A stretch of DNA of 64,000 bases from the NCBI RefSeq assembly GCF_006716065.1, contig NZ_VFOL01000001.1, positions 620,001 through 684,000 on the forward strand, read 5' to 3'. A model generated the notes under the pieces. That model searched no databases and was not told where the DNA came from. It saw nothing but the letters and a program-made list of their open reading frames with translations. The stretch is from Salinispora arenicola (GTDB taxonomy: Bacteria; Actinomycetota; Actinomycetes; Mycobacteriales; Micromonosporaceae). This document shows, one piece after another, positions 13,181 to 26,305 of this stretch. Made by a program: the position numbers and the translations under genes. Each line of letters begins with the position of its first letter. Positions within the stretch are counted from its first letter, which is position 1.

Positions 13181-13261
13181 ATGGCCGTCACCGAGCAGAC
13201 TGTGGACCACACCGCGCGGACGTACCGCCGGTGGAACCTCGCCGGGGTGTTCGATGCGTGA
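13181..13261 (+). CDS. 26-residue ORF overlapping the PPTase start
   Basis: The ORF runs from ATG 13181 to TGA 13261 and encodes a peptide that starts MAVTEQTVDHTARTYRRWN and ends in LAGVFDA. Its stop overlaps the PPTase start (ATGCGTGA), so ribosomes finishing this ORF would be placed on the PPTase start. A candidate leaderless -10 lies just upstream. I do not recognise the peptide. It may be a real microprotein or simply a translational-coupling leader. No signal peptide, Cys residues or RiPP-type core is evident. Confidence 0.45.
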   Translation: MAVTEQTVDHTARTYRRWNLAGVFDA

Positions 13262-13910
13262 TCTGCTGCCTCCCTCCGTCGCGGTCGCGGTCGCGGAACT
13301 TCCCGACTGGGAGGGCGCCCTGCTGCCGGAGGAGCAGGCGGGTCTCAGCGATCAGGCCGTGGCCAGCCGGCGCCGGGACTTCACCGCTGGTCGCGTCTGC
13401 GCACGCCGCGCCATCTCCGCGCTCGGCCGACCGCCAGTCGCCGTCCCCACCGCCGCCAACCGCGCGCCGATCTGGCCGACCGGAGTGGTCGGGGCGATCA
13501 CCCACACCCACGGCTACTGCGCCGCCGCGGCGGCCAACGCCGACGAGGTTCGGTCGGTCGGCCTCGACGCCGAGCAGCACAAGCAGTTGAGCCCGGGGGT
13601 ACTCCGGATGATCTGCCTGCCCGAGGAGGAGGCGCTGCTGCGGCGACTGCCCGCCGGCACCTTCTGGCCGACCGTGGTGTTCAGCGCGAAGGAGACGATC
13701 TACAAGGTCTGGCATCCGATCGTCGGTACCTGGTTGGACTTCCACGACGCGGTCGTGACGCTCGACCCGCAGGCCGGTCGTTTCACCGCACGGATCGCCC
13801 CCGCCCGGGTCGACGCCGCTCCGGTTGACGACCCACCGGCAGTGGTGTCTGGCTGGTTCTCCGTTGACGGCGGCCTTGTGCGCACCGCGGCGGTGCTGCT
13901 TCCGGCATGA
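13254..13910 (+). CDS. 4'-phosphopantetheinyl transferase (Sfp/EntD type)
   Basis: The enzyme moves phosphopantetheine from CoA to the Ser of carrier proteins, activating PKS, NRPS or similar systems. The 218-residue protein shows SVGLDAEQHKQL (Mg-binding Asp and Glu) near residue 102 and FSAKETIYKVWHP (catalytic FSAKE...K) near residue 143, plus GRVCARRAI upstream. The ATG at 13254 overlaps the preceding 26-codon ORF by 8 nt. Longer in-frame starts reach back into non-conserved sequence. The neighbouring adenylation enzyme has no carrier domain, so its target is elsewhere or not yet seen. It could be the organism's general secondary-metabolism PPTase. Confidence 0.9.
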   Translation: MRDLLPPSVAVAVAELPDWEGALLPEEQAGLSDQAVASRRRDFTAGRVCARRAISALGRPPVAVPTAANRAPIWPTGVVGAITHTHGYCAAAAANADEVRSVGLDAEQHKQLSPGVLRMICLPEEEALLRRLPAGTFWPTVVFSAKETIYKVWHPIVGTWLDFHDAVVTLDPQAGRFTARIAPARVDAAPVDDPPAVVSGWFSVDGGLVRTAAVLLPA

Positions 13911-14169
13911 CGGTCACGCCCACCCTGAGGCGTGACGTCGACACCCTGCACACTCGCCGCGCACCCTGCGCTGAGCGGCTGCTGCCGCTCCCGGGTGTCT
14001 CACCAGCATGCGCGACCACAGACCACAGACCACGAAACATATAAATATTACCATTCACTTACACAAATGCTGAAAAGGCTGATCCTTCCGGTTCGGTCCG
14101 CTTCTCTGGACGTGGCGACCTTGCGCTGTCGCCGTCGGTCTGGCACCCCACACCAGGAAGTAGGACCCC
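13911..14169. other. AT-rich intergenic leader before the adenylation gene
   Basis: Bases 14030-14080 drop sharply in GC (AACATATAAATATTACC) inside otherwise GC-rich DNA. This suggests a promoter or protein-binding region. No clear -10/-35 pair with good spacing can be chosen, and no ORF is supported here. Confidence 0.4.
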
Positions 14170-15840
14170 ATGCAGCGCACCTCGACCACCACGACGGCAG
14201 AGACCACCACGTCGACGCGAGCCACCGGCCGTACGAACCTGCCCGCTTCGCCTTACCCCATCCACCCGCCGGAGCCACTGGCAACATTGTCGCCCCGTGA
14301 CCGCGCGTTGTTCGTACGCTTCGGTTACGGGCCCACCGAATCCGTCGCCCACACTCACATCCACCACGCCTTCGAGTACTGGGCTACCGTCACTCCGGAG
14401 GCCGTGGCCGTCGAGGACGGCGACGAGACCATCACCTATCGTGAGCTCGACCAGCGAGCCGATCAGTTGGCGGCCCGGCTCGCCGCATCGGGTGTCCGTC
14501 CCGGCGACCGGGTCGCGTTGTTCGTCCGACGGTCCATCCCGATGGTGGTCGGCCTGCTCGCGGCCCTGAAGGCCGGTGCGGCCTACGTTCCGCAACACGT
14601 CGACACGGTGCCCCCGGCCCAGCTGCAGCACGTCATACACACCGCCGACACCCGTGTGATCATGACGCTCGCCGCCACGGCGGACCGCATCCCGGTGCCG
14701 GACGGCCACGTCGTGATCACGCTTGACGACCTGGGAAAGACGGAGCCAACCGATCTCATCGCCGGCCGTTTCACCCCGGCGACGCCGCTCCCGCCCGACA
14801 GCCCCTGCTACGTGCTGTTCACATCCGGCAGCACCGGCCGACCCAACGGGGTCGTCGTGACACACCGCAACATCTGCAACATCCTGCTGACCTCGCCGGG
14901 CAACCTCGGCATCCAGCCGGGCTGGAAGGTCGGCCAGATTCTCAACATCGCCTTCGACATGGCCAGCTGGGAGATCCTGGGTGCTCTCAGCCACGGCGCC
15001 ACGCTGGTCATCCGTGGCTCGGACATCGTCGAGACGATGTCCCGCGTCGACGTCATCATCGCGACCCCCACCGTATTGAGCCGCACTGACCCAGACCGGT
15101 GTCAGCGAGTCAAGGTCGTGGCGGTCGCCGGCGAACCCTGCCCCCGGGCCCTCGCGGACGCCTGGTCCGCGGTCTGCGCCTTCTACAACGCCTGCGGTCC
15201 GACCGAAACCACGATCGTCAACACGATGAGTCGGCACCGCCCGACCGCGGAGCGACTCACCATCGGCCGACCGACACCCAACAACACCGTGTATGTGCTC
15301 GACGCTGACCTTCGCCCGTGCCCAATCGGCACCGTCGGTGAGATGTGGGCCGGCGGTGACTGCGTCTCGGCGGGCTACCTCAGCAATGCCCGGCTCACCG
15401 CCGAGCGGTACGCCCTCGACCCGTTCCTGGGGCACGGTCGCCTCATGTTCCGCACCCGTGACCTGGGGCGTTGGACTCCCGACGGCGAGTTGGAACACTT
15501 CGGACGGACCGACGACCAGGTCAAGGTCCGTGGTTTCCGGGTGGAGCTGGACTCGGTGTCCGCGATCCTGGAGGCCGTACCGGGCTGCACCCGGGCGGCG
15601 ACCATCAAGCTCGACGACCGCAGCCTCGTCTCGTTCGTGGCCCCCGCGGAGGTGGACCCGGACCTCGCCCGGATGGCCGTGTCCGAGGCGCTGCCGTACT
15701 ACTGCGTCCCCGAGACCGTGCACACCCTGCCGGAGCTTCCCACGACCAGCCGAGGAAAGATCGACAAGCTGGCACTCCGCCGCCTCGTCACCCGCCAGGA
15801 CCAGCTCGTCACCAGCCAGGAGCAGGGGGCGACGCGATGA
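14170..15840 (+). CDS. Stand-alone NRPS-like adenylation enzyme
   Basis: This 556-residue AMP-forming enzyme is of the amino-acid-adenylation type. Core motifs are A3 LFTSGSTGRPNGVVVTH (Asn where Lys is usual), A4 FDMASWE with the Asp that often binds an alpha-amino group, A5 NACGPTETT, A7/A8 RTRDLGRW and GRTDDQVKVRGFRVEL, and A10 Lys in SRGKIDK. There is no condensation, thiolation or thioesterase domain: the protein ends about 20 residues after A10. The N-terminal 25 residues are Thr-rich. Its stop overlaps the ATG of the next gene (ATGA), so the two products are probably made in equal amounts and may act as a complex. The substrate cannot be named from sequence alone. Confidence 0.87.
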   Translation: MQRTSTTTTAETTTSTRATGRTNLPASPYPIHPPEPLATLSPRDRALFVRFGYGPTESVAHTHIHHAFEYWATVTPEAVAVEDGDETITYRELDQRADQLAARLAASGVRPGDRVALFVRRSIPMVVGLLAALKAGAAYVPQHVDTVPPAQLQHVIHTADTRVIMTLAATADRIPVPDGHVVITLDDLGKTEPTDLIAGRFTPATPLPPDSPCYVLFTSGSTGRPNGVVVTHRNICNILLTSPGNLGIQPGWKVGQILNIAFDMASWEILGALSHGATLVIRGSDIVETMSRVDVIIATPTVLSRTDPDRCQRVKVVAVAGEPCPRALADAWSAVCAFYNACGPTETTIVNTMSRHRPTAERLTIGRPTPNNTVYVLDADLRPCPIGTVGEMWAGGDCVSAGYLSNARLTAERYALDPFLGHGRLMFRTRDLGRWTPDGELEHFGRTDDQVKVRGFRVELDSVSAILEAVPGCTRAATIKLDDRSLVSFVAPAEVDPDLARMAVSEALPYYCVPETVHTLPELPTTSRGKIDKLALRRLVTRQDQLVTSQEQGATR

Positions 15841-17219
15841 CCACGGCACCGCTGATCGCTGCACCGCCGGCACCTGGCGGTCCTGAATCGTCACGGTCCG
15901 GCCGGAGCGACGAACTGCCGCCGCGACTTCCGCTGCCTCGGCGGATCTTCACACACCCGGCACTGATGCACCACCACCGGCTGGCCGCGGTGGTGCTGGT
16001 CGCGAACCTCGGCATCGGCTGGTACGGGCTCGGCGCCGCCGGGTGGTCAACCGCCGACCTGCCGACCTCCCAGCTCGCCGGCCTGACCCTGGCCAACTTC
16101 ACCCTCGCCGTCGTCGTTCGGCAGCAGTACGTCATCAACCTGTTCTTCTGGCTGGCCACCCGGGCCCCAACGAGTTGGCCCCTACGCATCAGGCGGACGC
16201 TCGGAAAGGTCTACCACTTCGGTGGCCTGCACGTCGGGGGCACGATCGCCGGGACCCTGTGGTTCCTCGCCTTCACCGCGACCGCCACCGTCGAGTCGGT
16301 CCGATCCGACTCGGGCACGCCCGCGACTCTGGTGGTGGCCTACCTGTTGGTCGCTCTGCTGCTCACCGTGTGCGGCACCGCCCTGCCACCGGTACGCGCC
16401 CGACACCACGACCTGTTCGAGCGGGTCCACCGCTTCGGCGGGTGGCTGGCCCTGGCGTTGTTCTGGACGCTGACGATCCTGATGATCACCGCCGAGCCGG
16501 GTTCCCGACCACTCGGCACCGCGCTACTGACCGAGGTCAGCATCTGGGCGCTCACCCTGATGACGCTCAGCGTCGCCCTGCCGTGGCTACGGCTCAGGAA
16601 GGTACCCGTGGCCATCGCACGGCCGTCCACGCACGTCGCGCTGGTCCAGCTCCACCGACGCAGAGTTCCCTTTCCCGGGTCGTCCACCGCGGTCAGTCGT
16701 CGCCCGCTGCTGGAGTGGCACTCGTTCGCCAACGTTCCCGCACCGGGGCAACGATGCTTCCGCATCACCATCTCCCGCGCGGGCGACTGGACCGGCGCCG
16801 TCATCGACGACCCCCCGTCCCAGCTGTGGGTCAAGGGCATCACCACCGCCGGGGTGGCCAACATCGAAACCCTCTTCACCAAGGTGGTGTACGTCGCCAC
16901 CGGCAGCGGGATCGGGCCGGTGCTGCCCCACCTGCTGGCTGACGACGTCCCCTCCCATCTGGTCTGGGCGGTCCGCAGCCCCCGAACAACCTACGGCGAC
17001 GGGTTGATCGACGAGATCCTCACCGCCCGCCCGAGCGCCACGATCTGGGACACCGCCACCGACGGCAAGCCCGACATGGTGGCCCTGGCGTACCGCGCCT
17101 ACCGCGAACACGGCGCCGAGGCCGTCATCTGCATCTCCAACAAGAAGCTGACCTGGCAGGTCGTCCACGGGCTGGAGCAGCGAGGCATCCCCGCCTACGG
17201 CGCCATCTGGGACTCCTGA
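15837..17219 (+). CDS. Ferric-reductase-like membrane flavoprotein
   Basis: This 460-residue protein has about six membrane helices in residues 40-255, then a soluble ferredoxin-reductase-like part. Helical segments carry paired His motifs, [11 protein letters not shown] and [11 protein letters not shown], suited to b-haem ligation. The NAD(P)-binding motif [17 protein letters not shown] lies near residue 345. WHSF near residue 285 sits where the RxYS flavin motif is expected. The end, [16 protein letters not shown], looks conserved rather than random. From memory, some fungal NRPS-like proteins fuse an adenylation domain to a similar membrane reductase; here the two are separate, overlapping genes. 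Electron acceptor and product are unknown. Confidence 0.75.
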
Positions 17220-17236
17220 CCGACAGGGAGAACACC

Positions 17237-18001
17237 GTGAATCTCATCGTGGAGCGGACCGACCGCGTCCTGACCGTACGACTGAACCGGCCCGCCGCCC
17301 GCAACGCCCTCAACACCGAACTGATGACCGACCTGCTGGCCACGCTGCAACCCCTGGACAACGACCCGGGCATCGGATGCTTCGTCATCACCGGCACCGA
17401 CCAGTACTTCGCGGCGGGTGCCGACATCCGGGAGATGGCGGCGAAGTCGGCCGCGGACGTGGTGGCCGAGGACTTCTTCGCCGGCTGGGAGGCGTTCACC
17501 GCACTACGTACGCCCACTGTCGCGGCCGTCGCCGGCTACGCTCTCGGCGGCGGCTGTGAACTGGCCATGATGTGCGACATCATCGTTGCCGCCGACACAG
17601 CTCACTTCGGGCAGCCGGAGATCACGCTCGGCGTGATTCCCGGCATTGGTGGCACGCAACGGCTGACCCGACTCGTGGGCAAGGCCAAGGCCATGGACCT
17701 GATCCTGACCGGTCGGCTGATGGACGCCGAGGAGGCCGAACGCAGCGGCTTGGTCTCCCGGGTCGTCCCGGCTGACCGGCTGATGGCGGAGGCGTGGGCC
17801 GTGGCCCGGACGGTGGCCGGGTATGGCAGGGCGGCCACCAGGGCCGCCTGCGAGGCGATCGACCGAGCTTTGGAGACCAGCCTGCGCGAGGGTGTCCTCT
17901 TCGAGCGGCGCAGCTTCCAGTCCTTGTTCGCCACCGCCGACCAGCAGGAGGGAATGCGGGCCTTCCTCGACAGACGCGCGCCACGGTTCACCGGTCGGTA
18001 G
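17237..18001 (+). CDS. Enoyl-CoA hydratase/isomerase (crotonase family)
   Basis: This 254-residue crotonase-fold protein has an oxyanion hole FAAGADI near residue 57 and [11 protein letters not shown] near residue 103. The first catalytic Glu is in [16 protein letters not shown]. At the second catalytic position the residue is Asp ([12 protein letters not shown]), a substitution common in bacterial members. The GTG at 17237 is preceded by AGGGAGAA. It follows the reductase gene by 17 bp on the same strand and ends the three-gene unit, converging on nuoN. It could be a general beta-oxidation enzyme, but the tight spacing suggests a role in the same pathway. Confidence 0.88.
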
Positions 18002-18042: not shown

Positions 18043-19443
18043 CTACCCGCCGGCGGTACGCCACACCAGACCGGCGGCGACACCAACGACGAGGCTGAGT
18101 GAGGCCGACCCGACGGCCACCGTCACACTCCATCGCCCTGGGCGGTCGGGCGGGGCGACCGCCCAGGGCTGATAGAGAGGAACCAGCCACCGCAGGTAGT
18201 AGAAGAGGCTGAGGACGGAGTTGGCGAACACGACGGCCGCCAGCCAGGCGAATCCGCCGTCCCAGGCGGCGCTCGCGGTGGTGAATTTCCCGACGAAAAC
18301 CGCCGTAGGAGGGGTACCGACCAGACCGAGCAGCGCCACGACCAGGGCGGCGGACAGCCACGGCGAGGTCGCCGCGACCCCGCGCCAGGACGTGAGTTCG
18401 CGGTGCCGCGGCAGTGCGGCGGTTACCGCGAACGCGGCGACGTTGGTGACCGTGTAACCGGCGAGGTAGACCAGCAGCGACGGCTGGGCGAGGTCGCTAC
18501 GTCCGGTGGCCACGATGGGTACCAGCAGGTAGCCGACCTGGCTGACCGTCGACCAGCCCAGGAGCCGCCGCACGTCGGTCTGCCAGTACGCGGCGAGATT
18601 ACCCAGCAGCATGGACGCCACGGCCAGGGCGGCCACCACGGCCGGCCATTCCGACCCTTCGGGCAGGACACCCGCCAGCCGGTGGACCGCGATCAACGCA
18701 CCGATCTTGGGTACGGTGGTGAGGAAGGTCGCCGCCGTGACCATGGAGCCCTGTGCCGCGTCGGGAATCCAGAAGTGGGCGGGCACTCCCCCGGCTTTGA
18801 ACATGAGACCACCGATGACTGCGACGGCAGCGGCGGTGACCACGGCCCGCGGCGCGTCAGGCAGTCGAGCGGCGAGTTCGGTGTAGGTCGTGGTGCCGGT
18901 GACCCCGGACAGCAGCGTGACACCGAGCAGGAGCAGGATTCCGAACAGGGCACCGAGGAGATAGGTCTTCAGCATCGCCTCGGTGGCACTGCCGGTACCC
19001 ACCAGTCCGATGAGCGCATACAGGGGAATGCTGGCCAGCAGGAAGCCGACTACCAGCGCGAGCAGGTCGGTGGCGCCGGCGAGCAGCACCGCCCCGGCGG
19101 TGGCGAACAGCAGCAGTGCGTAGGCGTCGCTCTCCCGGGCGGCTCCGGCGATCTCCTCACCGGCGAGGGCGAGGACGAGGAGGCTGCCGACGGCGGCGAG
19201 GATCCGGGCGACACCGGTGGCGGTGTCGACCGCATAGGAGTCATCGAAGGCGGTGTTGGCGGGATAGGACATCGCGATCGCGGCGGCAATGATCACCGCG
19301 AGGCAGACGGCGGCGGCGACGACGCGCAGGATCCACTGTCGGTGGCGGGGGGTGAACGACCCGCCGACCAGGACGACGAGTGCACCGCCGGCGAAAAGCA
19401 TCTCCGGTAGCAGCAGGTGCGCCCGCATCATCTCCGACGCCAC
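18043..19443 (-). CDS. nuoN: Complex-I-like membrane subunit N
   Basis: This 466-residue antiporter-like subunit has about 14 helices. Hallmarks include FKAGGVPAHFWIPDAAQGS (broken-helix Lys region) and TDVRRLLGWSTVSQVGYLL. It is the last gene of an eight-gene operon without NADH-binding or iron-sulfur subunits. The start is either GTG 19443, four bases after the nuoM stop, or one of two adjacent ATGs at 19428-19431. The longer one is given. In complex I this subunit is one of three proton-translocating modules. Confidence 0.88.
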   Translation of the reverse strand: MASEMMRAHLLLPEMLFAGGALVVLVGGSFTPRHRQWILRVVAAAVCLAVIIAAAIAMSYPANTAFDDSYAVDTATGVARILAAVGSLLVLALAGEEIAGAARESDAYALLLFATAGAVLLAGATDLLALVVGFLLASIPLYALIGLVGTGSATEAMLKTYLLGALFGILLLLGVTLLSGVTGTTTYTELAARLPDAPRAVVTAAAVAVIGGLMFKAGGVPAHFWIPDAAQGSMVTAATFLTTVPKIGALIAVHRLAGVLPEGSEWPAVVAALAVASMLLGNLAAYWQTDVRRLLGWSTVSQVGYLLVPIVATGRSDLAQPSLLVYLAGYTVTNVAAFAVTAALPRHRELTSWRGVAATSPWLSAALVVALLGLVGTPPTAVFVGKFTTASAAWDGGFAWLAAVVFANSVLSLFYYLRWLVPLYQPWAVAPPDRPGRWSVTVAVGSASLSLVVGVAAGLVWRTAGG

Positions 19444-19447
19444 CGGG

Positions 19448-20938
19448 TCACCGGCCGAGCAGGTCGACGAAGGTACGGGCGGCGGGTTCGACGAGGTCGA
19501 GCAGAGGACGCGGCAACACACCGATGAACAGGGACAACGCCAGCAGTGGCCCAATCGACCACACCTCGCTGGCACGGAGGTCGCCGAAGCCCGTCGAGTG
19601 TCCGGCAGTGGGGCCGGTCAGCAACGCCTGCCCAGCGCGGAGGAACAGCGCGGCCGTGACGAGGATGCCGAGCAGGGCCACCGCCGTCACCGGCGCGGTG
19701 GCGATGCTGCCGGCGAAGATCTGGAACTCGGCGATGAAGCCGGAGAAGGCCGGCAGACCGAGGGAGGCGAACGCGCCGACGGCGAAGAACCCGGCGAACA
19801 CCGGCGCGGGGGCGGCGAGACCACCGTAGGCGTGCAGGTCGTAACTGCCGGCACGCTCGTACACGACCCCGGCGAGCAGGAACAGCGCAGCGGTGATCAG
19901 GCCGTGACTGACCATCTGGGTGACCGCGCCGGTCACCGCGACCGCCCGGGGTCCGGCGGTGTCGACGCTGACCAGACCGGCGACGCCCACGGCGAGAACG
20001 ACATAGCCCATGTGGTTGATCGACGTGTAGGCGATCATTCGCTTGAGGTTGGTCTGAGCCAGTGCGACCAGGGCACCGTACAGAACCGACACGACACCGA
20101 CGGCGATGATGACCCACGCCCAACCCCGCCATGCCTGTGGCAGCATCGGCGCGGCGATACGCACGAACCCGTACGTACCCATCTTCAGCAGCACCGCGGC
20201 CAGGACCGCGGACCCGACGGCGGGAGCATCCGTGTGCGCCGGCGGCAGCCAGGTGTGAAACGGCACGGTGGGGGTCTTCACCGCCAGGCCGAGCAGGATC
20301 GCGGCGAGCACCAGCCCCCCGGCCAGGGGCCGTCCCGCAAGGGGGTTGTCAGCGGTGAGGGTGGGCATGTCGAAGGTATGCGGATCGGCTGCGGCGAACA
20401 GGCCGATGAAGCCGGTGAGCAGCGCCAGGGAGCCGAGGAAGGTGTAGAGGAAGAACTTCAACGCCGACCGACCCCGGTCACCGTGGCCCCAGCCTGCTAT
20501 CACCACGTACATGCCGACGATGGACAGGTCAAAGAAGACGAAGAAGAGAATCAGGTCGGCTGCGGCGAACAACCCGAGACTCACGCATTGCAGGAACAGG
20601 AACAGCGACGCCTGTACGCGGGGGCGGTGCCGCTCCCGCAACGCGTACAGGGCGCAGGCGAGGAAGACCACCGTGGTCATCGCCATCAGGGGCAGGGAGA
20701 GCCCGTCCACACCCAGGTGGTAGCTGCTGCCCACGCCCGGGATCCACGCCGCCCGTTCGGCGAAGGCCAGCTGGCCGGGCGGCGGAGTCTCGTAGCCCGC
20801 CCAGACCACGCCGACCAGCACCAGGTCGAGCGCCGCCACGCCCACCCAGACCCACCGCGCGGCGGCGTTGCCCAGACGCGGGACGGCGGCCAGTACCACC
20901 GCGGCGAGCAGTGGCAGAAAGATGATCACACTGAGCAT
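19448..20938 (-). CDS. nuoM: Complex-I-like membrane subunit M
   Basis: This 496-residue antiporter-like subunit has about 14 helices. TPTVPFHTWLPPAHTDAP and LAQTNLKRMIAYTSINHMGY are the conserved NuoM stretches. The helix Glu typical of NuoM lies in the early region, although I cannot place it exactly. The ATG at 20938 (MLSVIIFLPLLAAVVL) begins four bases after the nuoL stop. It is most likely a proton- or cation-translocating module. Confidence 0.9.
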   Translation of the reverse strand: MLSVIIFLPLLAAVVLAAVPRLGNAAARWVWVGVAALDLVLVGVVWAGYETPPPGQLAFAERAAWIPGVGSSYHLGVDGLSLPLMAMTTVVFLACALYALRERHRPRVQASLFLFLQCVSLGLFAAADLILFFVFFDLSIVGMYVVIAGWGHGDRGRSALKFFLYTFLGSLALLTGFIGLFAAADPHTFDMPTLTADNPLAGRPLAGGLVLAAILLGLAVKTPTVPFHTWLPPAHTDAPAVGSAVLAAVLLKMGTYGFVRIAAPMLPQAWRGWAWVIIAVGVVSVLYGALVALAQTNLKRMIAYTSINHMGYVVLAVGVAGLVSVDTAGPRAVAVTGAVTQMVSHGLITAALFLLAGVVYERAGSYDLHAYGGLAAPAPVFAGFFAVGAFASLGLPAFSGFIAEFQIFAGSIATAPVTAVALLGILVTAALFLRAGQALLTGPTAGHSTGFGDLRASEVWSIGPLLALSLFIGVLPRPLLDLVEPAARTFVDLLGR

Positions 20939-20942
20939 CGGG

Positions 20943-22808
20943 CTACCCCAGCACCACGAGAACGACGACACCGACGACGAGCACCACCACGGCCTGCAGG
21001 TAGTACTGGTGCAGTTGCCCGGTCTGTGGCCGCCGCGCGAGGTGACCCAGCCGACGCAGCCCGGCGGCGACAAGCTCCACCACCCGGTCGATCCGACGGT
21101 CGTCGACCCGACCGGCCCGCGTGGCCAGGGCGGTGGTGGCGGCCGCCGCCCGCTCGACACCCCGGTCCACCACCCGGTCGTCGAACCGAGCTGCCGCCTG
21201 ACCGGCTGCCATGGCCGGACGCGCCACCAGCATTCGGGCGGCATGTCGAAGGTCCAGCCATCCCCGCGCCCACCCCGGTTCCGGCGCCCGCCACCGCCAC
21301 ACGAGGAACAGGACCACCAGGGCGATCAACGCCGACGCGCCCAGTTCCCGCACCGGAACCGGCAGGTAGCCGCCGGGCTGACCGACAGCACGGGCAACCA
21401 CCGCGCCGACCGGTGGCAGGGCCAGCAACCCGGCGCACGCCGCCGCGACGGCCAGCACCACCAGCGGCATCCGCCCGGCCAACGGAATCCGGCCGGTACC
21501 GCGCTCCTCCTCGTCCCGGTACGCGTCCACCGCTGCTTGTTCGTCGACGGGAACCCGCCGCCAGAGCACGACGAGTGCCTTTCCCGCGTAGGCGGCGGAG
21601 AGCGCCGCCGCCGCGAGGCCAACGGCGTACAGCACCGGCGACTGTTCACGCACAGGAGCGAGGACGGCATCCTTGGTCGCCCACAGTGACAGCGGTGCGA
21701 TCCCGGCCAGCGCGAGCAGCCCGATGCTGGCCGACGAGCCGACCAGCAACCACCGCCGGGCCACCCCGGCCAGGCCGGGGAGCTGTTTGGTGCCCAGCGC
21801 GGCGAGCCACGCCCCGGCGGCAAGGAACAGCAGTGCCTTGACCGCGGCGTGTGCCACCAGATGCGTGGCGCCGCCCGCCACCGCACCAGCCCCGGCTGCC
21901 AAGACCACGAACCCGAGCTGCGCGCAGGTGGAGGCCGCGAGGAGTTGCTTGAGGTCGCGCTGGGCCAGTGCGACCGCGCCGAGCAGCAGCGCCGTCAGTC
22001 CGCCGACCCACATGGCCGCGGGCCCGGCCCAGTCGGTTGCTGCCAGCAGCGGCTGTGTCCGCAGCAGCAGGTAGCCGCCCATCGCCACCATCGCCGCGGA
22101 GTGCAACAGCGCGCTGACCGGGCTCGGGCCGACCATCGCACTCGACAGCCAGAAGGAGAACGGTAGCTGTGCGGCCTTGCCCAGCGCCGCGACCAGCACC
22201 CCTGCCGCCATGACGTGCCGCCACCCCGGGCTGCTGGCGGCGAGGTCGGACAAGGCCAGTCCCGCACCACCGGCCAGGGCCGCCCCGGCGGCCACATACA
22301 ACCCAAGGTCCGCAGTACGGGTGGTGACAAACGCGGTCAGCCCCGCCGAGACTCGCGCCCCGTCCTGCCACCGGAACCCGATCAACGCGTACGACGCCGC
22401 GCCCATCAGCTCCCAGGCGAACAGCAACGTCGGCAGGGTGCCCGCCGTGACGGTCAGCGCGGCCGAGGCGGCGAACAACAACATCAGGCCGTGAAACCGT
22501 GCTGCTGGGGTGAGTGCCTCGCCGACGGCGGCCACCAAGACCAACAGTGTCACCACCATCACCGTCGGCAGGACCAGCGCAGCCAGCCCGTCAACGGCCA
22601 GCACGAAGTCCGCACCCGCCACGAACGGCACCGCCACCGCCGGCCGGGCGACGGCGACCAGCACCGACAGCATCACGGCCGTGGTCGCGGCCGCCAGCGC
22701 GAACCGTACGGCGACCCGATCCCCCGGCCGGGCGACGACCAGCACTGCTCCGGCGGTGGCCGGCAGGCCGACCACACCCCACAACGCCACCGCCTCGAGC
22801 GTGGTCAT
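20943..22808 (-). CDS. nuoL: Complex-I-like membrane subunit L
   Basis: This 621-residue subunit has about 16 helices and the long C-terminal extension expected for the lateral helix. GKAAQLPFSFWLSSAMVGPSP, QRDLKQLLAASTCAQLGF and HLVAHAAVKALLFLAAG match NuoL positions. The tail at residues 480-621 includes an Arg-rich amphipathic stretch (RRLGHLARRPQTGQL) before the last helix. The ATG at 22808 overlaps the nuoK stop (ATGA). Confidence 0.9.
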   Translation of the reverse strand: MTTLEAVALWGVVGLPATAGAVLVVARPGDRVAVRFALAAATTAVMLSVLVAVARPAVAVPFVAGADFVLAVDGLAALVLPTVMVVTLLVLVAAVGEALTPAARFHGLMLLFAASAALTVTAGTLPTLLFAWELMGAASYALIGFRWQDGARVSAGLTAFVTTRTADLGLYVAAGAALAGGAGLALSDLAASSPGWRHVMAAGVLVAALGKAAQLPFSFWLSSAMVGPSPVSALLHSAAMVAMGGYLLLRTQPLLAATDWAGPAAMWVGGLTALLLGAVALAQRDLKQLLAASTCAQLGFVVLAAGAGAVAGGATHLVAHAAVKALLFLAAGAWLAALGTKQLPGLAGVARRWLLVGSSASIGLLALAGIAPLSLWATKDAVLAPVREQSPVLYAVGLAAAALSAAYAGKALVVLWRRVPVDEQAAVDAYRDEEERGTGRIPLAGRMPLVVLAVAAACAGLLALPPVGAVVARAVGQPGGYLPVPVRELGASALIALVVLFLVWRWRAPEPGWARGWLDLRHAARMLVARPAMAAGQAAARFDDRVVDRGVERAAAATTALATRAGRVDDRRIDRVVELVAAGLRRLGHLARRPQTGQLHQYYLQAVVVLVVGVVVLVVLG

Positions 22809-23107
22809 CCGGACAGGTCCGAGGCCGCGTCGGTCAGGTCCGACCGCCGTATCCGGTGCAGTTGCGTGACCACGGCGAAGCCCATTGCCATCTCGACAGT
22901 CATCGCCACGATGACGACCAGCAGCAGCACCTGACCGGACGGATCGGGGGCACAGAACCACCACAGCCCGGCCGCGGCCAGGATCACACCGTTGAGCATC
23001 AGCTCCAGGCCCATCATCACCATCACCACGGCCTGTTGCGACAGGGCACCGTACAGGCCGACGGCGACCAGCGCTGCGGCCACCAGCAGAACAGTCCGTA
23101 CCGTCAT
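22805..23107 (-). CDS. nuoK: Complex-I-like membrane subunit K
   Basis: This 100-residue protein has three helices. The second holds Glu in MMGLELMLNGV and the third holds Glu in VAMTVEMAMGFAVV. These match the two buried Glu residues of NuoK needed for coupling. The start overlaps the nuoJ stop and the stop overlaps nuoL (both ATGA), giving strict translational coupling. Confidence 0.92.
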   Translation of the reverse strand: MTVRTVLLVAAALVAVGLYGALSQQAVVMVMMGLELMLNGVILAAAGLWWFCAPDPSGQVLLLVVIVAMTVEMAMGFAVVTQLHRIRRSDLTDAASDLSG

Positions 23108-23667
23108 CGCCCCACCCCTCCCGGCTGCGGATCGGCCGCGGGTCGGCGACGAAGGTCGTCCCCGAACCGGTCGTAGCGGGTGCGGTGTGCGGCCAGTACG
23201 ACACCACCGACGATGGTGACCGCCATGACCACGCCCACGGCAGCCATGGTCAACATCTTCGGACCCATCAACTCGGTGCCGAGCGCGGCGGTGACGTCGT
23301 CGGGCGGGCTGCCGCGACGACTGGGCCACGGTGCGAACAGTGCCCCGGCAGCCAGGAGCACAAAGACCCCGACCGACACCGGTAGGGCGTGGCGGGTGCC
23401 GTGGACCATGTTCATCGACATCAGCGCCGGATTCATCCCCATGAACATGTTCATGTACACAGCCATGATCGCCATTTCCATCACCATCATCAGGATGATC
23501 AACACACCCACGTATCGCTGCTGCAGCAACATCACCTGCAGACCGACGACGATGAACGACACCGCCAGGGAGTAGCTGGCGCGGGCCATCGAGTCGACGA
23601 CGAACACAGCGGCCCCGGCAAGTACCGCGACGACCGCGAGGGCCCAGAAGACGACGTGCGTGACCAT
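23104..23667 (-). CDS. nuoJ: Complex-I-like membrane subunit J
   Basis: This 187-residue protein has five hydrophobic segments. Helix 3 is unusually Met-rich (IILMMVMEMAIMAVYMNMFMGMNP), where NuoJ normally has a Tyr-containing pi-bulge helix. The 20-residue C-terminal tail is charged. It lies four bases after nuoH. The family assignment rests on position and helix pattern more than on strict sequence identity. Confidence 0.82.
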   Translation of the reverse strand: MVTHVVFWALAVVAVLAGAAVFVVDSMARASYSLAVSFIVVGLQVMLLQQRYVGVLIILMMVMEMAIMAVYMNMFMGMNPALMSMNMVHGTRHALPVSVGVFVLLAAGALFAPWPSRRGSPPDDVTAALGTELMGPKMLTMAAVGVVMAVTIVGGVVLAAHRTRYDRFGDDLRRRPAADPQPGGVGR

Positions 23668-23670
23668 GCC

Positions 23671-24600
23671 TCAGCTCCCGATCACGAGGACGGCGACGAG
23701 GAGGTCCTGCGCCAGCACCGCCGGCAGCAGCACCAGCCAGCCCACCTCCATGAACACGTCCGGACGCAGTGCGGGTACCCGGCGGCGCAGCCACACCAGC
23801 AGCGCCAGCAGCACCGAGGCCTTCACCAACACCCAGGCCCAGGCGGGCAGCAGCGGCCCGGCACCGCCGCCCAGGAACATCGGTACGGCGAAGGCCGCCC
23901 CCGCCGCCAGTAGCGCGTAGCGGCCGGCCAGGAACAACAGCCGATCCACGCCGGACAGCTCCACGGTCACCCCACCTGCCACATCGTCACCGAGCGCTGG
24001 TGAGAACGGCCCCCACACCGCCATGGCCACCACGCCGAGGCAGTAGACGACGAAGGCCACCGGCATCCACACCACGAACCACAGGCCCTGCTGCGCGGCA
24101 GCGACCTCCCCCACTCGCAAGCTCGACGCCGCAACCGCGGGCGCCACCAGGGCGAACATCAGCGGCAGCTCGTACGCCAACCCGTGCGCCAGGAACCGGT
24201 AGCCACCGACGAGCGAGTACGCGGAGTTGGCACCCCACCCGGCCAGCCACACGAAGGCCCAGGCCAGGACATCGAGCGCGTTGACCCAGACCACCCCGAC
24301 GTCCAGGTCGAACAGGGTCCACCGCCCGAGCGGCACCACCGTGACGATCATCAGCGCCATCACGAGCAGCCCCGCCCCGCCGACCCGCCACAGCAGGCGG
24401 TCCGCGGCGACCGTGGTCCGACGCCGCTGCCGCAGCAACCGCGCCACCTCACCCACCGGCCGCACCATCGCGGATCTGGCGCCGGTCGCCCGCCCAGCCA
24501 GGGTGCCGTCGAGTAGCGCCGCAGCAACCGCGAGAGTCCCCAGCAGCCCTGCCGCGACCGGCGCCCAGCCACCGGACACCGCCACCGGTGTATCAGCCAT
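23671..24600 (-). CDS. nuoH: Complex-I-like membrane subunit H
   Basis: This 309-residue protein has about eight helices. In complex I, NuoH forms the quinone channel and joins the peripheral arm to the membrane arm. WGANSAYSLVGGYRFLAHGLAYELPLM corresponds to the conserved channel region and keeps the Glu in YELPL. The C-terminal RPDVFMEVGWLVLLP replaces the usual D-x-L-M...W-K-x-L-L-P and lacks its Lys. The ATG at 24600 overlaps the end of the upstream gene by 8 nt. An intact NuoH without a visible quinone-reducing partner is odd. Confidence 0.85.
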   Translation of the reverse strand: MADTPVAVSGGWAPVAAGLLGTLAVAAALLDGTLAGRATGARSAMVRPVGEVARLLRQRRRTTVAADRLLWRVGGAGLLVMALMIVTVVPLGRWTLFDLDVGVVWVNALDVLAWAFVWLAGWGANSAYSLVGGYRFLAHGLAYELPLMFALVAPAVAASSLRVGEVAAAQQGLWFVVWMPVAFVVYCLGVVAMAVWGPFSPALGDDVAGGVTVELSGVDRLLFLAGRYALLAAGAAFAVPMFLGGGAGPLLPAWAWVLVKASVLLALLVWLRRRVPALRPDVFMEVGWLVLLPAVLAQDLLVAVLVIGS

Positions 24601-25741
24601 CGGACACCGCACCCAGCACATCGATGTCGAGGCTGGCCACGATGAGCCGTGCGGTGGCCACATCCCACCCGGACACCACGCTGGCCACCGCCTCCGGGGA
24701 TGTGACCGGCAGGGCCGTGACGGCGCCGGTTCCACCGCTGACCGCGCGGTCCGCCCGGTCGAGCATGCCGTCGAGCCGATCCCATACGTCACCGGCGAGT
24801 TCCGGGGCAAGCCGCAGCCGGGTGAGTTCGCCAGGGCCGAGCGGTCCCACCCGTCGCAGCGACAGGCGCAGCAGCCGTGATCGGCGGAGCTGACGCCTCA
24901 GCCGCACCAACTCGGTGACCGCAGCCGACCGCTTGTCAGCGAGCAGCAGATCACGGACGACGCGGGCCCGTCCGGCTGCGTCCGACCAGCCCGCCAACGC
25001 CAGCACTCGGGCCACGTTGTCGCAGCGTTGGGCGGCGAACTCTCCGGCGTCCGGCCCAGCCTTGCTGGTCCTGTGGCCACCGGCCGCGTGACCGCGCTGC
25101 GCAGCGTCGACGACGTACGCCTGCGCCTCGCCGATGACGTCGCCATGCAGGTGACAGCGCAGGACCAGACCGGTCGGCCAGGCCGGCAACACCGGACCGA
25201 GCCGCACGTGCAGCACGTCCATCTCGAGCCCGTCCCGATCCTCGCCGCCATGGGCCAGGGCGATGCCTCCGCCCGGGGGAGACTGGGCCGCGCCGGTGTC
25301 GGTGCCGGCATGCTGAGCTGCCGGATGGTCGCCGTGCGGTGCTGCCGGATGATCGTCGTGCCGGGCTGGCGGGCGATCGCCGTCGTCGGTCCCATGCCCG
25401 GCACGGGCGCTACTGTCCGCCTCTTGACGCACCGTGCTTCGTAGCGCGGCCTCGGCGTGCTCCAGGGCCGCGGCCGCCCGATCGGGCGACGCGACGTCGA
25501 TCCGGGCACGTGGTCCCGGGAATTGGTCCCACAGGCTTGCCAGTGCCCGCGTCAGCTCGGGTCCGGTCGATCCGCATACGGCCAGGATGTCGGCGTCCGC
25601 TGGCGACACTGCCAGGTGCCACCCCCGGGCACTTGTGAGCCGCTCGACGGCGACGCGGGTCAGCCAGTGCCCGGCCGCCTCGACGACCAACACGTGGGCC
25701 TGCCGGACGGCCAGCCGCGCCAGCACGTCACTCACACCCAT
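24593..25741 (-). CDS. Diverged NuoB/NuoD-like fusion protein
   Basis: This 382-residue protein sits where nuoB-nuoD would be. Residues 15-110 resemble NuoB in pattern (VSPADADILAVCGSTGP, then SLWDQFPGPRARIDVASPD), but the Cys residues that bind cluster N2 are missing. Residues 130-190 are a His/Asp/Pro-rich insert (HDDHPAAPHGDHPAAQHAG). Residues 195-380 resemble a shortened NuoD or hydrogenase large subunit, ending VSGWDVATARLIVASLDIDV. The ATG at 25741 overlaps nuoA by 10 nt. I infer a structural cap or alternative docking subunit without redox centres. Similarity is by eye and needs structure comparison. Confidence 0.6.
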   Translation of the reverse strand: MGVSDVLARLAVRQAHVLVVEAAGHWLTRVAVERLTSARGWHLAVSPADADILAVCGSTGPELTRALASLWDQFPGPRARIDVASPDRAAAALEHAEAALRSTVRQEADSSARAGHGTDDGDRPPARHDDHPAAPHGDHPAAQHAGTDTGAAQSPPGGGIALAHGGEDRDGLEMDVLHVRLGPVLPAWPTGLVLRCHLHGDVIGEAQAYVVDAAQRGHAAGGHRTSKAGPDAGEFAAQRCDNVARVLALAGWSDAAGRARVVRDLLLADKRSAAVTELVRLRRQLRRSRLLRLSLRRVGPLGPGELTRLRLAPELAGDVWDRLDGMLDRADRAVSGGTGAVTALPVTSPEAVASVVSGWDVATARLIVASLDIDVLGAVSDG

Positions 25742-26076
25742 CGCAGGGCGCCCTCCCGCCAGGCCCACACCACCGCGGCGAGCACACCCGCCAGGAAGAC
25801 GAACATCTCCACCACGGCGGTGGCCCCCAGCTCGGCGACGACCACCGACCACGGATACATGAACAGCATCTCCACGTCGAACGCCAGGAACAGCAGCGTC
25901 GCCAGGTACCACCGCACGTGGTACCGGGACAGGGCGTGTTCCTCGGGTCTCCAGCCAGACTGGAACGGCAGCACCAGCAGCGGCTCCCGAGCGACCACCA
26001 CCGCGCGGTGCACCAGGTAGCAGCCCGCCACGACCACCACGGCGACCAGCGCCATACCCGCCGCCCCTGCGTACAT
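25732..26076 (-). CDS. nuoA: Complex-I-like membrane subunit A
   Basis: This 114-residue protein has three helices. The loop and second helix PFQSGWRPEEHALSRYHVRW and FLAFDVEMLFMYPWSVV match NuoA, including the FDVE...YPW motif. The usual Cys in the first loop is replaced (PFQSGW). It is the first gene of the operon, whose promoter should lie in 26077-26366, shared with the divergent phoD. Confidence 0.9.
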   Translation of the reverse strand: MYAGAAGMALVAVVVVAGCYLVHRAVVVAREPLLVLPFQSGWRPEEHALSRYHVRWYLATLLFLAFDVEMLFMYPWSVVVAELGATAVVEMFVFLAGVLAAVVWAWREGALRWV

Positions 26077-26305
26077 CGCGCGTCACCCACCCTGCCGCGC
26101 CTGACAAGGGGCGCAGAACCACATTAGGCAGCAAAATGCCCTTTTGCCCGATCAGCCGGTTTCCTCACCCGTTCAGGTCGGTTATGGACTGGGGCTACTC
26201 GAACGGGAGAGGGGACCGTCGCACCAGCTCGCGAAGGTCGCGCACACGACTGTCGACCGATAGGGATCAGTTCGGACATGACCGGGCGGGATTGTTCGTG
26301 AGAAT

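Follow-up and report, generated by a model that had tools for sequence, protein, structure and literature searches.

Coupled genes for a carrier-less adenylation protein, a membrane flavoprotein and a crotonase in Salinispora arenicola form a proposed split bacterial counterpart of fungal TmpB and TmpL

In fungi, TmpL of Alternaria brassicicola and Aspergillus fumigatus, TmpB of Aspergillus nidulans and the protein ChNPS12 join a non-ribosomal peptide synthetase (NRPS)-like adenylation (A) domain to a TmpA-type, ferric-reductase-like membrane domain (PMC2766074, PMC4804170). As far as the accessible text of these papers goes, TmpL has neither thiolation (T) nor condensation (C) domains, its recombinant FAD/NAD(P) domain bound flavin and the protein is required for control of reactive oxygen species (ROS) in fungi (PMC2766074). 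TmpB is located at the plasma membrane and is required for normal conidiation, A. nidulans tmpB mutants are not sensitive to oxidants, and its authors proposed that a hydrophobic amino acid is activated and oxidized (PMC4804170, accessible text). Bushley and Turgeon, in the available portions of their study, reported that A domains of two Salinospora species and of Hahella are nested in the ChNPS12 subfamily, called these bacterial members standalone A domains, favoured an origin predating the split between bacteria and fungi, and requested more bacterial sampling (PMC2823734). Here we analyse a 64,000-nucleotide stretch of the Salinispora arenicola genome (the window; positions 620,001 to 684,000 of contig NZ_VFOL01000001.1), in which the gene for a free-standing A protein overlaps that for a TmpA-like membrane flavoprotein and an enoyl-CoA hydratase (crotonase) gene comes next. 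This A gene may be one of the Salinospora genes of Bushley and Turgeon, or an orthologue, and we propose that the window system is a split, bacterial form of the TmpB/TmpL architecture.

Judged from the sequence, the A, membrane protein and hydratase genes are one unit. An earlier note on this DNA had described the same arrangement, with a four-base overlap, a hydratase 17 bp further on and a phosphopantetheinyl transferase (PPTase) gene upstream, and this layout holds:

14170 (ATG) to 15840 (TGA), + strand: A protein gene, 556 aa (PF00501, 249.5 bits; TIGR01733, 341.3 bits)
15757–15759, + strand: codon of the A10 lysine K530 (K in 81/81 rows)
15837–15840, + strand: ATGA stop/start overlap of the A and membrane protein genes, read from the sequence
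15837 (ATG) to 17219 (TGA), + strand: TmpA-like membrane flavoprotein gene, 460 aa (predicted NADPH oxidase (NOX) fold, with six long helices predicted and an FAD/NAD(P)H-type domain at the C terminus)
16230–16232, + strand: codon of H132 in predicted helix 3 (invariant column)
16902–16919, + strand: GSGIGP NAD(P)H-binding motif (81/81 rows)
17237 (GTG) to 18001 (TAG), + strand: enoyl-CoA hydratase (crotonase) gene, 17 bp after the membrane protein stop (PF00378, 252.3 bits)
about 13254–13910, + strand: PPTase gene (PF17837/PF01648), ending 259 bp 5′ of the A gene

The linkage of the three genes extends far beyond Salinispora. A scan of genome contigs yielded 251 encoded relatives of the membrane protein, of which the nearest 80 were kept as loci. 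These loci come from four phyla (65 Actinomycetota, 11 Bacteroidota, 3 Chloroflexota and 1 Pseudomonadota), and the membrane protein of the window is 86–89% identical to its nearest named relatives, which are from Salinispora. An A gene adjoins the membrane gene in 80/80 loci and a hydratase gene does so in 79/80, the exception (L050) being a contig that ends 171 bases after the membrane gene. With start codons picked by script, the junctions between the A and membrane genes comprised 54 ATGA overlaps, 12 GTGA overlaps, 4 one-base overlaps, 1 other short overlap and 9 fusions. All nine fusions belong to Bacteroidota (six Aquimarina, one Splendidivirga and two without a genus name), where two Bizionia loci keep separate A and membrane genes; the single polypeptide of Splendidivirga (L020) is 1005 aa long. 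The hydratase gene starts 9 to 177 bp downstream of the membrane gene, with a median of 25. Protein distances over 80 rows were correlated among the three proteins (Spearman 0.92, 0.897 and 0.885), with 0/500 permutations as high. The complete set also occurs in three loci from other searches: L087, and L082 and L083, where the locus end truncates the A match. In a genus sample that was not selected for this gene, the membrane protein was present in 19/121 genomes, with an A gene adjacent in 18/19 and a hydratase gene in 17/19 (own genome counted in both; 7 of the 19 appear to be genomes already among the 80 loci). As far as gene positions and protein distances can show, the three genes are translationally coupled or fused and are mostly inherited together.

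Searches against Pfam and NCBIfam profiles identified the A protein as an amino acid adenylation domain (its TIGR01733 score compares with a cut-off of 317.4 bits) and found no carrier, condensation or reductase domain in it. A quick tree with long branches set the protein among six NRPS A domains encoded in its own genome and separated it from three CoA ligases, whose identities were checked by NCBIfam; its tblastn identity was 33–37% to the former and 22–25% to the latter. By PheA numbering, the specificity pocket presumably consists of D263, M264, W267, I297, A318, A320, A341, I349, V350 and K530, and we take K530 to be the equivalent of the A10 lysine K517 of PheA. We know of no specificity code that matches this series. 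D263, M264, W267, A320, I349 and K530 are identical in 81/81 rows, as is G343, and variation at the other four of the ten sites is limited to small or similar residues. A single substrate across the whole A family would be the simple reading of this near-constant pocket, and the presence of D263 suggests an alpha-amino acid. The published pocket of TmpB supplies a close parallel, its D, W, G, I and K being matched by D263, W267, G343, I349 and K530, with TmpB K495 paired with PheA K517 (PMC4804170, accessible text). Two core-motif positions depart from the NRPS domains of the same genome: N226, invariant in 81/81 rows, occupies the A3 site, where most of those domains carry lysine (L107 likewise has N), and C342, also invariant in 81/81, occupies the A5 site, where they carry tyrosine.

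Neither Pfam nor NCBIfam profiles match the membrane protein, and no Pfam ferric reductase domain scores over its cut-off, so the label 'ferric-reductase-like' used in the earlier note rests on fold and motifs. One cyanobacterial relative that was scanned gave sub-threshold matches to NAD_binding_6 and FAD_binding_8. The predicted model of the window protein contains six long helices and a ferredoxin–NADP reductase (FNR)-type domain, and its whole length takes a NOX fold that, among the structural matches listed, resembles SpNOX (8qta) and NOX2 (8wej) at just 10–18% identity. The resemblance to these enzymes includes the NAD(P)H motif region, where GSGIGP and a C-terminal W are kept in 81/81 rows, an aromatic residue third from the C terminus (W458 here, F397 in SpNOX) and the FAD segment, where EWHSFA aligns with EWHPFT of NOX2. 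Three histidines, H132 on helix 3 and H191 and H198 on helix 5, are invariant even in distant relatives. NOX enzymes hold two bis-histidine haems, whereas helix 3 of this family has no second conserved histidine after H132, the best column reaching 10/81 rows; two such haems therefore cannot form, and because the two bis-histidine pairs on helices 3 and 5 are not complete we file the protein under the NOX fold and not as a canonical NOX. The earlier note had missed this departure from the usual two-haem pattern, as well as the one-polypeptide form in Bacteroidota.

The third gene also appears specific to the locus. E108 and E128, the positions of the two catalytic glutamates of crotonases, are E in 80/80 rows; the protein scores 387.6 bits against the PRK05862 equivalog, under its curated cut-off of 396. 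Cassette hydratases are 59–90% identical to that of the window in a 23-row alignment, and its best paralogue among the 11 fetched from its own genome reaches 48%. In ten chosen carrier genomes the top match was the cassette hydratase in 10/10, with the next paralogue at 51% or less. When 23 cassette hydratases were analysed in a tree together with 25 paralogues (10 of the 13 other PF00378 places of the own genome plus 15 paralogues from other genomes), the cassette set lay on one side of a branch with an SH-aLRT support of 99; the branches among the paralogues are long. The unit thus has a dedicated third member, the hydratase, which is almost always present, a point that the earlier note had missed.

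The PPTase, which the earlier note had counted as a possible part, does not belong. It has a match in 41/41 sampled genus genomes, only 8 of which show the membrane protein: its own at 100%, 37 full-length at 66–82%, one broken up across contigs (G427) and a weaker pair at 44–46% (G426 and G440). It adjoins the cassette only in 5 Salinispora loci of the 80, and likewise in L171–L175 of the genus sample. In L140, L144 and L148 it lies beside a PMT mannosyltransferase gene, as it does in the window where such a gene is 5′ of it, with no cassette adjacent. The enzyme is related to PptT (171 bits, under the model cut-off of 365).

No conserved carrier gene was found among the recurring neighbours of the 80 loci. 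A motif scan of stop-to-stop frames of at least 60 aa gave chance-like + strand matches inside the cassette in 4 loci and no D-containing match within 3 kb on either side; it used one motif and did not list outside matches without D, so an odd carrier could escape it. The earlier note had named three observations that would count against a carrier-less A enzyme coupled to a ferric-reductase/NOX-type membrane flavoprotein, and none of them was borne out: the A protein falls with NRPS A domains and not with the three acyl-CoA ligases, no conserved carrier gene or motif was seen, and the A/membrane pair is conserved in both the nearest 80 loci and the genus carriers. This coupling is supported, as is the fungal parallel that the note had drawn, through TmpB, TmpL and ChNPS12 in the accessible text (PMC4804170, PMC2766074, PMC2823734).

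We propose, tentatively and at a little short of an even chance, that the three genes form a unit in which an amino acid is activated, processed by the flavoprotein and hydrated by the crotonase, in a split form of the TmpB/TmpL architecture. At the expense of ATP, the A enzyme would activate a single hydrophobic amino acid, identical across the family, and the acyl-AMP would be handed to CoA, or kept at the membrane, instead of passing to a carrier arm. The flavoprotein would alter the activated acyl group in a redox step of either direction, trading electrons with NAD(P)H by way of FAD and no more than one haem, located near the cytosolic face. This would give an alpha,beta-unsaturated CoA ester, on which the crotonase would add or remove water. 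The part of TmpB in fungal conidiation suggests, by analogy, that the probable product is a modified amino acid of small size that serves as a signal or a precursor. A wider version, which we regard as unlikely, holds that this carrier-free chemistry is common to bacteria and fungi, with an aminoacyl-adenylate or A-made CoA ester redox-processed by a flavoprotein that has one haem or none and then hydrated to a small signal, and that TmpB and TmpL are fused descendants of the bacterial cassette.

Several observations weigh against this proposal. D263 hints at an alpha-amino substrate, which would make a classical enoyl-CoA hydratase an odd partner, and the changes at A3 (N226 for lysine) and A5 (C342 for tyrosine) leave the predicted A activity unproven. 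The model of a fused protein has a predicted template modelling (pTM) score of 0.53, so a contact between its domains is not established. Linkage may be weaker beyond the nearest 80 relatives, and the fungal comparison is one of published features. In one genus genome (G411) the A and membrane genes are kept with no hydratase at the locus, the best hydratase elsewhere being 49% identical, so the hydratase is not indispensable. At that locus (L177; G411:C1:3978800-3984600) the membrane gene is directly followed by a response-regulator-like gene whose place in L162 is past the hydratase, which suggests a deletion. Membrane proteins with neither an A gene nor a hydratase also occur, in G700 (53% identity, searched within 6 kb), on a Pantoea plasmid (46%) and on two cyanobacterial plasmids (about 33%). 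Because these relatives stand alone, a solo form resembling fungal TmpA exists beside the cassette form.

A redox or ROS signalling unit, in which an NADPH oxidase-like enzyme would work with the A domain as an ATP- or amino-acid-sensing regulator and the crotonase would clear lipid products, is in our view rather unlikely. It would account for the predicted NOX fold and for four cysteines of the A protein (C311, C324, C342 and C512) that are invariant in 81/81 rows, two of them presumably near the adenine pocket by PheA numbering; together with N226 they make a redox-sensitive A domain beside a redox enzyme conceivable. The need for TmpL in fungal ROS control points the same way (PMC2766074, accessible text), but the absence of oxidant sensitivity in A. 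nidulans tmpB mutants does not (PMC4804170, accessible text). Moreover, the family retains its A10 lysine and specificity pocket, neither of which a simple sensor would have to keep, and helix 3 is without the second histidine of two-haem NOX enzymes.

We consider it quite improbable that the genes serve a catabolic or lipid route, with the A protein as acyl-CoA ligase, the flavoprotein as a beta-oxidation-like dehydrogenase and the crotonase hydrating the enoyl-CoA. The order ligase, redox enzyme, hydratase does resemble beta-oxidation, the crotonase glutamates are intact, and a GEP motif is common to the A protein and the acetate-CoA-ligase paralogue L099. However, the A protein clusters with NRPS domains, away from the three acyl-CoA ligases, and carries D263 in 81/81 rows, the flavoprotein is of FNR/NOX and not of acyl-CoA dehydrogenase type, and the identified recurring neighbour families include no thiolase or hydroxyacyl-CoA dehydrogenase.

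The earlier note had suggested a split bacterial version of a reductive membrane system; under such a reading the flavoprotein would reduce the activated acid, as acyl-AMP or ester, to an aldehyde. This reading is supported in part: our proposal keeps the split bacterial form, but we judge a reductive step very unlikely. The NAD(P)H domain with its invariant GSGIGP and C-terminal W would suit such a step, and an NAD(P)H-dependent enzyme that acts after adenylation is the established logic of Lys2 and the carboxylic acid reductases. The cassette differs from these in having neither a carrier motif nor a thioester reductase domain, and the hydratase would be left without a role. In NOX-type enzymes single electrons travel outward from NAD(P)H by way of FAD, and we know of none that reduces acyl-AMP. 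Little credence is due to loading of a distant NRPS carrier in trans, with the coupling to the membrane gene merely setting expression, a role that Bushley and Turgeon proposed for such standalone A domains (PMC2823734, accessible text) and for which the genome offers a PPTase and 50 PF00501 places (several in open frames of more than 1000 aa, with 6 of the 9 fetched exceeding the TIGR01733 cut-off), but 9/80 fusions and co-inheritance in four phyla demand an ever-present partner, a part that among the genes observed the membrane protein alone could fill.

Our preferred reading, the amino-acid-processing unit, can be set more closely beside its fungal counterparts. TmpB, TmpL and ChNPS12 share with the cassette an NRPS-type A domain without T or C domains, six membrane helices and an FAD/NAD(P) domain; the GSGIGP motif has the same letters in TmpL (PMC2766074, accessible text), and the Bacteroidota fusion L020 is close in length to TmpB (989 aa). 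The site of TmpB C307 is C in 26/81 bacterial rows, and the TmpL motif RLHFD, called hypothetical in the accessible text (PMC2766074), is not present in the window protein. The bacterial system differs in having separate, overlapping genes and an added dedicated crotonase, which the accessible fungal accounts do not mention. Like the relatives from Pantoea, cyanobacteria and G700, A. nidulans TmpA is a membrane flavoprotein without an A domain; AfeA, the partner of TmpA, is a 4-coumarate–CoA ligase (4CL)-like enzyme, unlike the NRPS-type A domain here (PMC4804170, accessible text). The A/TmpA architecture is thus already known. What we have not found in print, in a literature search largely without subscription papers that returned no paper on a bacterial A/TmpA/hydratase unit, are the bacterial forms, whether split or fused, the hydratase dedicated to them, the pocket that hardly varies and the scattered occurrence across four phyla. 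These findings extend the 2010 account of Salinispora proteins as standalone A domains. The available fungal work does not describe the reaction or product of TmpB and TmpL; the bacterial cassette, split and fused and present in tractable bacteria, makes that question testable, and its dedicated CoA-ester hydratase is a clue missing from those accounts.

Beyond the loci chosen for relatedness the distribution is patchy: 3/396 Actinomycetota genomes were positive (own genome counted, four first-look candidates scored per genome), as was 1/198 genomes in the class to which L020 belongs, namely the L020 genome itself, beside the 19/121 of the genus sample. Five plasmid records with relatives were found and three were examined. 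The lone membrane protein on the Pantoea piersonii plasmid (L084, NZ_CP104760.1, 9070-10242) is annotated as hypothetical, and the gene after it, by annotation an AAA family ATPase, exceeds the cut-off for a family of amino-acid transporters. On the Calothrix and Fischerella plasmids (L085:6475-9075 and L086:8566-11278) a 33% membrane flavoprotein is followed by an HlyD-type membrane fusion protein. We reject a mobile or viral origin: a scan of viral contigs gave no relatives, and the sole 'phage' record (L087, MT838715.1, 4949 bases) looks bacterial and mislabelled; this Bacteriophage sp. entry from human faeces has a complete cassette beside a gene that by eye is sigma-factor-like.

Other gene families recurred near the cassette in a survey of open reading frames of at least 70 aa, with queries taken from 20 of the 80 loci. 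In at least 8/80 loci, Bacteroidota contributed DUF6733 and a set of host genes in synteny (polyphosphate kinase, Ppx, MiaE and others), and the remaining families were scattered ATP-binding cassette (ABC) transporter and major facilitator superfamily (MFS) proteins at about 30% identity. The DUF6733 gene follows the hydratase in Bacteroidota; the family occurs in 11 loci, with three members identified (L020:12276-13001, L028:12330-13058 and L065:12145-12867), and is possibly a fourth part there. The A rows of L012 and L026 each contain one inner stop, most likely from tblastn extension past the true stop. The source genome is a single contig of 5.63 Mb, and 3′ of the cassette, on the opposite strand, it carries an NADH dehydrogenase/antiporter-type gene (PF00361), the first in a run of NADH dehydrogenase membrane subunit look-alikes that faces the cassette (18043-26134, − strand).

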